A stretch of 64,000 nt of DNA from Treponema sp. (GTDB lineage: Bacteria > Spirochaetota > Spirochaetia > Treponematales > Breznakiellaceae): NCBI GenBank assembly GCA_009788065.1, contig WQSF01000002.1, positions 1-64,000 on the forward strand, in the 5' to 3' direction. A program made the position numbers and the translations under genes. Position 1 is the stretch's first letter, and each line of letters opens with the position of its first letter. This document shows positions 29,828-30,799 of this stretch, in pieces. The notes below the pieces were generated by a model. It saw nothing but the letters and a program-made list of their open reading frames with translations, was not told where the DNA came from and searched no databases.

Positions 29828-29895
29828 AATAAAAAAGACCTCATCCTTTGATGAAGTCTTTTTTTTATTCCTTTGAGTGAGCCGCGCAGGATTCG
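29828..29895. repeat. Direct repeat copy A: terminator plus tRNA-Lys 3' end remnant
   Basis: 68 bp, 66 identical to 30039-30106. Confidence 0.9.
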
Positions 29896-29905
29896 CCTTC
29901 CAGTC

Positions 29906-29999
29906 GCAAACATCCTGTTTGCTCCTTCCATGCCGCCTGCGCCGCTAAACCGGCAGTCCTGCCGGTTTACCCCGTCGGACGCTTTCGCGTCCTCTGGGG
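29906..29999. repeat. Three-hairpin structured element
   Basis: GCAAACA-TCC-TGTTTGC; TAAACCGGCAG-TC-CTGCCGGTTTA; GGACGC-TTTC-GCGTCC nested in CCCC/GGGG. Confidence 0.8.
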
Positions 30000-30038
30000 T
30001 CGCGGCTCCGTTTCGAATCCTGCTAAAAGTATTCAAGC

Positions 30039-30106
30039 AATAAAAAAGACCTCATCCTTTGATGAAGTCTTTTTTTTATACCTTTGAATGAGCCGCGCAG
30101 GATTCG
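30039..30106. repeat. Direct repeat copy B, containing the terminator and tRNA-Lys 3' end
   Basis: See copy A; hairpin AAGAC-C-TCATC-CTTT-GATGA-A-GTCTT with A and T tracts. Confidence 0.9.
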
Positions 30107-30161
30107 AACCTCCGACCACCGCCTTAAAAGGGCGATGCTCTACCGACTGAGCTAGCGGCCC
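30089..30161 (-). tRNA. tRNA-Lys (anticodon TTT), CCA not encoded
   Basis: GGGCCGC TA GCTCAGTCGGTAGAGC A TCGCC CTTTTAA GGCGG ... GGAGG TTCGAAT CCTGC GCGGCTC A; cloverleaf folds apart from one T-stem mismatch. Confidence 0.92.
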
Positions 30162-30317
30162 AATGCCCAAGTATGTGGCATATATATTTGTAAATAAAAT
30201 TAATAAAAAAATCAAGTAGTCTAACTTTCACTAATATTTAATGGAAACCATTTTTTAGCCCTTCGATATTACGTTTATGGGCGTTTGTTTTCCACAGGTT
30301 TTCCACATTGCAATTAA

Positions 30318-30352: not shown

Positions 30353-30799
30353 ATGAATCTAAAAACAGTGATTACAACAGAAACAATTGACCTTCACTTG
30401 AAGGGTACCACGAAAAAAGAGATTATCAATGAATTGCTTGATATTCTTGTTAGAACGGGGAAAATACAGGATAGGGAAGCGGCGCTTACCGCAGTTATGG
30501 ACAGGGAGGAAAAAATGTCCACGGGAATGAAGCACGGGATTGCCATTCCGCACGGTAAATGCGCTGCCACCGAAGATTTGGTCGCCTGTATCGGCATTTC
30601 AGAAACGCCGGTCGATTTTGATTCTCTGGATAAACAGCCATGCAGAATTTTTATAATGACTCTTTCTCCGGTGGAGAAAACCGGGCCTCATTTGCAATTT
30701 CTTGCGGAAGTCAGTCTCCTTTTTAAAAGCAGCGACAAACGCGACGAAATCCTTAAAGCTGCTACACCCGGGGAAGTTCTGGAAATATTAGCGGAGTAA
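30353..30799 (+). CDS. PTS EIIA (Ntr-type) domain protein, second paralog
   Basis: AVMDREEKMSTGMKHGIAIPHGKCAATEDLVACIGISETPVDFDSLD. Confidence 0.9.
   Translation: MNLKTVITTETIDLHLKGTTKKEIINELLDILVRTGKIQDREAALTAVMDREEKMSTGMKHGIAIPHGKCAATEDLVACIGISETPVDFDSLDKQPCRIFIMTLSPVEKTGPHLQFLAEVSLLFKSSDKRDEILKAATPGEVLEILAE

Follow-up and report, generated by a model that had tools for sequence, protein, structure and literature searches.

Structured repeat units behind spirochaete tRNA genes, a widespread family with the anatomy of tRNA-linked repeats and candidate CsrA-binding loops

What is the duplicated tRNA end that lies, with a group of hairpins, behind the tRNA-Lys gene of this Treponema contig: the scar of an integration, a mobile element, a decayed gene copy or a small gene in its own right? 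From the letters of the window (i.e., the whole stretch of 64,000 nucleotides that was analysed), an earlier note had described 68-bp direct repeats with two mismatches, each comprising a terminator and the end of tRNA-Lys, on both sides of three strong hairpins, and all of this was recovered. The repeats (29828-29895 and 30039-30106; 97%, spacing 211) each contain a terminator-like hairpin with a T-run (29831-29864 and 30042-30075) and the last 18 nucleotides of tRNA-Lys(ttt). The minus strand of the DNA between them folds into the three hairpins with -72.3 kcal/mol (z = -8.0), a value equalled by none of 200 shuffles. The hairpin element behind the tRNA gene measures 138 bp and runs in the tRNA sense, its parts being listed here in minus-strand order:

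30088..30162, minus strand: tRNA-Lys(ttt), the host gene (ARAGORN; Rfam RF00005, 63.9 bits)
30089..30106, minus strand: tRNA-Lys 3' end, original copy, with T-loop, T-stem 3' strand, acceptor 3' strand and discriminator (sequence)
30042..30075, minus strand: terminator-like hairpin 1 with T-run, spacer between tRNA and unit (inverted repeat; the terminator scan scores its downstream twin and not this one)
30012..30023, minus strand: 5' arm GCAGGATTCGAA, reverse complement of the tRNA-Lys T-loop and 3' T-stem (inverted repeat; the rule is general across 131 units)
29969..30000, minus strand: hairpin A with a GAAA tetraloop (fold)
29947..29968, minus strand: hairpin B with AGGA in the apical loop, CsrA-type (fold; loop-motif count)
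29895..29933, minus strand: hairpin III, conserved (match of model R1 at 29885-29940, minus strand, 68.9 bits; covariation in the family)
29878..29895, minus strand: 3' tail, second copy of the tRNA-Lys 3' end (repeat comparison)
29831..29864, minus strand: intrinsic terminator 2, immediately behind the unit (terminator scan; duplicate of hairpin 1)

In the fold of this unit, a helix formed by GCAGGATTCG and CGAATCCTGC (30023-30014 with 29895-29886) encloses the three hairpins, of which hairpin III is made of a closing stem, a GGA/GNA internal loop, tandem GA pairs, a 6-bp stem and the apical loop CAGGATG. Both termini are indeed derived from the tRNA, as had been supposed, although not to the same extent. 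The 3' end (29878-29895) copies the whole tRNA-Lys tail through the discriminator base, whereas at the 5' end (30023-30012) the T-loop and 3' T-stem appear as their reverse complement, without the whole acceptor. A simple promoter scan of the window gave no unit promoter in the spacer. The gene that adjoins tRNA-Lys (30353-30799, plus strand) encodes a protein of 148 amino acids, conserved in all 45 relatives searched, which by reading of its sequence is a putative PTS EIIA/PtsN-like domain.

The element is one unit of a large, widespread and previously unlisted spirochaete family found behind tRNA and tmRNA genes. BLASTN with the element matched seven sites in its own genome, and 33 of 60 relatives also had copies, so that a single-copy sequence, which would have spoken against mobility, was discarded; the copies fetched lie almost all behind a tRNA or tmRNA gene and on the same strand, i.e., at tRNA 3' ends, the location that the earlier note had named as support for mobility. 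In order to remove bias, an exact pattern limited to hairpin III, and thus to the core only, was run on GTDB genomes. Among the matches listed, 73 of 86 copies are situated less than 600 nucleotides downstream of a same-strand tRNA gene, most of the remaining ones are cut by contig ends of these draft genomes, and all belong to spirochaetes except one on a contig of a Tannerella MAG (L138). There, the core sits at the contig end, and the contig is probably a mis-binned spirochaete sequence. Of 393 genomes sampled from the phylum, 73 gave a match to model R1, which describes the conserved 3' hairpin; they represent 33 of the 167 genera and belong mainly to the same order as our Treponema, but also to several other families of the class and, in one case, to a lineage outside the class. 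Cultured, non-pathogenic bearers include T. primitia, T. bryantii and Brucepastera parasyntrophica. A patchy distribution of this kind argues against an essential role. Where units are present they can be abundant, since a survey of tail copies at tRNA genes was positive for 17 of 50 genes in one genome (G267), 7 of 42 in another (G258) and 7 of 32 in the own genome, this last count including one weak 14/17 match.

Units measure 82-314 bp, most of them 130-150, and contain no ORF. They often occur in tandem, in arrays of two to six with a period of 107-228 bp (mostly 185-215; 185-190 bp in arrays of 5-6 units), and often each have their own terminator behind them, while the spacer lacks a T-run in half of them. 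The anatomy is thus tRNA, spacer or terminator, arm, three-hairpin core, tail copy, spacer or terminator. Some loci present particular forms. Behind two tRNA-Gly(gcc) genes of G267 (L272 and L338), TLR-like arrays with a period of 107-148 bp keep the rule of arm and tail with a different and short core (TTCAATCCATTCCTATCGACACGCGGAGC...). Behind tRNA-Pro(tgg) of the same genome (L346), one unit apparently sits inside another, within the apical loop of the latter's hairpin III, and behind tRNA-Ser(gct) of G022 (L057, about 1943-2230), a foreign hairpin repeat, similar to a sequence also present in L061, interrupts the hairpin B loop of a unit.

The ends of the units match the local tRNA. Among the matches listed, 58 of 73 core-pattern copies carry the tail of their own tRNA at 15 or more of 17 positions, compared with 0.5% for the tails of other tRNAs and at most 7 of 73 in 500 label shuffles; in most units this tail is retained at 17/17 or 16/17 and is particular to the tRNA concerned. 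The copy is confined to the stretch between the T-loop and the tRNA 3' end and never includes the tRNA body. Similarly, in 131 distinct units the 5' arm corresponds, in reverse complement, to the T-loop and 3' T-stem strand of their own tRNA, complementarity being observed at positions 9-19 of T-loop and T-stem in 72-100% of the units and ending abruptly at the acceptor border in about half of them. In units whose tRNA tail differs from their own tail, the arm agrees with the tRNA in 20 cases and with the own tail in 11.

These matching ends accompany cores that seem to have travelled. In a comparison of 37 cores, which takes in only units first found by similarity to the window core, the nearest core belonged to a different tRNA and a different genome in 32 cases; the core of our tRNA-Lys, for instance, is 88% identical to one behind a tmRNA. 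Vertical inheritance by tRNA locus was rejected, given that the nearest neighbour shares the tRNA type in only 4 of the 37. The sites of relatives, which the earlier note proposed to compare, include empty and scarred as well as filled tRNA-Lys sites within the genus, only a few orthologous sites being informative since most of the 30 loci have no tRNA near the neighbouring gene. Together, the nearest cores at other tRNAs and the coexistence of filled, scarred and empty sites support the view that cores move between tRNA loci and probably take on the 3' end of the local tRNA, and that recombination between repeated tails probably loses or multiplies units. Speculatively, both 3' strand ends of a core, with TTCGAATCC-like sequence, could be elongated with the T-arm of the new tRNA as template. 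The early proposal of a small non-autonomous mobile element therefore stands for the movement of cores between tRNA loci and falls for a conventional transposon: instead of the constant terminal inverted repeats and short target duplication of MITEs, the units have ends that vary with the host tRNA.

The core looks like an RNA selected on the sense strand. The pairing of hairpin III is kept in 98.6% of cells, against 74.9% when shuffled (0 of 500 shuffles as good), its covariation score reaches 0.63 against 0.18, and compensatory changes affect both helices; the pattern used to collect these hairpins fixes several columns and leaves the varying stem pairs free. The sense fold is better than the antisense fold in 70 of 72 units, by 7 kcal/mol on average, and the GNRA-like loops of hairpin A and the tandem GA pairs fit an RNA, although a function as single-stranded DNA is still conceivable. 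Rfam, searched at gathering and relaxed thresholds, returned the tRNA as the only real match; Thr_leader, CsrC and other hits were dismissed as weak matches to terminators.

GGA is the motif bound by CsrA, and loops such as CAGGATG, CATGGATG and similar forms are of CsrA type. The presence of GGA in loops as a CsrA-type motif is documented (PMC8144298). In 50 units picked by their tail copy alone, and hence independently of the core model, GGA occupies 87 of 145 apical loops (60%, against 22% in shuffles), and 35 of the 50 exhibit at least two GGA loops (15% in shuffles). Several hairpins with apical GGA, as in CsrA-sequestering sRNAs, are therefore found in the units. The enrichment concerns two separate hairpins and extends across families, with the ANGGA form in hairpin B; the loop of hairpin III reads ACGA rather than GGA in about 17%. 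The own genome encodes CsrA, as do 70 of the 73 genomes with units, compared with 264 of 320 others (Fisher p = 0.003), an association confounded by phylogeny because families f10 and f13 lack both: they have no units and, among the rows listed, mostly no CsrA. Many CsrA-bearing genomes are devoid of units, and one 99% complete genome (G270) has five units and no CsrA match. In the literature searched, no sRNA antagonist of a spirochaete CsrA was found.

E. coli has been known since 1978 to possess repeats linked to tRNA genes (TLRs), whose function and origin, to our knowledge, were never settled. We favour, with a probability of roughly 55%, the reading of the window element as a spirochaete TLR, i.e., the gene of a small structured RNA, flanked by two terminators downstream of a tRNA gene and predicted to yield a read-through CsrA-binding sRNA. 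Recurrence behind many tRNAs and tmRNA, selection on the structure of the sense strand and the anatomical match to the E. coli TLRs are observed, whereas the role in CsrA binding is inferred from the motif and from analogy. RNA polymerase reading through the first terminator would produce the unit RNA, whose arm would pair with the tail copy in a closing helix similar to a tRNA T-stem. Enzymes processing tRNAs or 3' ends might then trim it at the tail. The apical GGA loops would bind CsrA dimers, and the dose of this sponge would consequently follow tRNA transcription and growth rate.

The most serious competitor, which we consider unlikely although far from negligible, is a selfish mobile element adapted to the 3' ends of tRNAs, in which the RNA structure serves mobility rather than host regulation. 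Its DNA or RNA would be copied with 3' ends priming on the T-loop and T-stem of a new tRNA gene, so that both ends become target copies, the arm inverted and the tail direct. The relationships of the 37 cores, the patchy presence with empty and scarred tRNA-Lys sites, the tandem arrays, the nested unit and an arm that follows the tRNA more often than the own tail all fit such an element. On the contrary, the units encode no enzyme, no autonomous partner was found, none appears in viral contigs, the core comparison is limited to units resembling the window core, and the conservation of GGA loops across distant families answers no obvious need in mobility. A combination of both ideas is similarly doubtful, namely a tRNA-parasitising mobile RNA gene whose core would jump between tRNA genes, copy its ends from the T-loop, T-stem and acceptor of each new host, and found predicted CsrA-binding RNAs under tRNA promoters across the phylum. 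Less probable still is a TLR-type structured RNA without affinity for CsrA, with AGGA loops used for contacts with the ribosome or another protein, for tRNA processing or for control of termination. The ACGA variants of hairpin III and the bearer genome without CsrA match would suit it, as would the prediction that E. coli tRNA-linked TLRs, unlike the rRNA-linked ones, are CsrA non-binders (PMC8144298); the GGA enrichment in two hairpins across families, the ANGGA form and the co-occurrence with CsrA are less easily accommodated.

Two further explanations, both raised by the earlier note, concern the duplication itself. The first is an att-like duplication, here taken as left by site-specific integration of a phage or ICE: the tRNA 3' end, which is directly repeated, is the usual attB region, and the boundary at the T-loop resembles a crossover. 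Such a residue is very improbable, and a phage att scar was rejected, as units contain neither integrase nor ORF, the inverted arm is foreign to att sites, the ends differ from one host tRNA to the next, conservation and covariation of the core extend across families, and 2.9 million viral contigs gave no match to it. A decayed tandem duplication of tRNA-Lys and its terminator would account for the terminator being duplicated along with the tRNA end, but is hardly credible: the copy never extends to the tRNA body, and a conserved unrelated core and an inverted arm lie in between at dozens of different tRNAs, a recurrence that refutes it.

The preferred reading, a spirochaete TLR, gains from comparison with known systems. 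An independent, abundant family with TLR anatomy in another phylum indicates that this arrangement is general and offers data beyond E. coli alone, i.e., covariation, loop motifs and target-matched ends. Two questions can now be put to the test, namely whether the transcription of stable RNAs determines the activity of CsrA by way of read-through sRNAs, and by what route a repeat comes to carry the 3' end of every tRNA that newly hosts it. In the literature searched, TLR-like repeats were not reported outside E. coli. Integrative elements targeting tRNAs share the tRNA 3' end as direct repeat, but the units differ by the lack of an integrase (no ORF fits in a unit), their size of 82-314 bp, the inverted arm and the conserved RNA structure. 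The CsrB, CsrC and RsmYZ sponges similarly display several hairpins with apical GGA, whereas spirochaete units have about two sites each, are many and dispersed, and show no dedicated promoter in the window. The E. coli rrn TLRs RrA, RrB and RrF are sRNAs that arise by read-through between two terminators, and their GGA loops bind CsrA in vitro (PMC8144298). Like the units, they are flanked by dual terminators behind a stable-RNA gene, repeat the end of that gene at their 3' end and have GGA loops, including CAGGACG; unlike them, they follow 5S rRNA in three rrn operons rather than tRNA and tmRNA genes, are nearly identical to one another where the spirochaete sequences vary, and bind CsrA demonstrably where the units carry predicted sites. 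The closest anatomy is that of the E. coli tRNA-operon TLRs (tyrTV, rtT RNA, Rfam RF00391). As in these, the units lie downstream in the tRNA operon and on the same strand, one to several per locus and at several loci per genome, and their 3' end directly repeats the last 18-19 bp of the upstream tRNA. Our check of tyrTV in E. coli MG1655 also revealed tail copies every 178 bp (tyrV), comparable to the spirochaete period, a 10-nucleotide inverted arm and a multi-hairpin core. The Rfam RtT model (RF00391) matched no spirochaete unit, with tyrTV controls at 133-138 bits, and model R1 reached at best a non-significant 11 bits on the tyrTV and rrnB TLRs. The units, with their shared anatomy and no detected sequence homology, are thus of TLR type by anatomy and form a new sequence family distinct from Rfam RtT, with one recognisable core, a fixed hairpin III and usually two GGA loops, present at many tRNA types and tmRNA and often accompanied by terminators.
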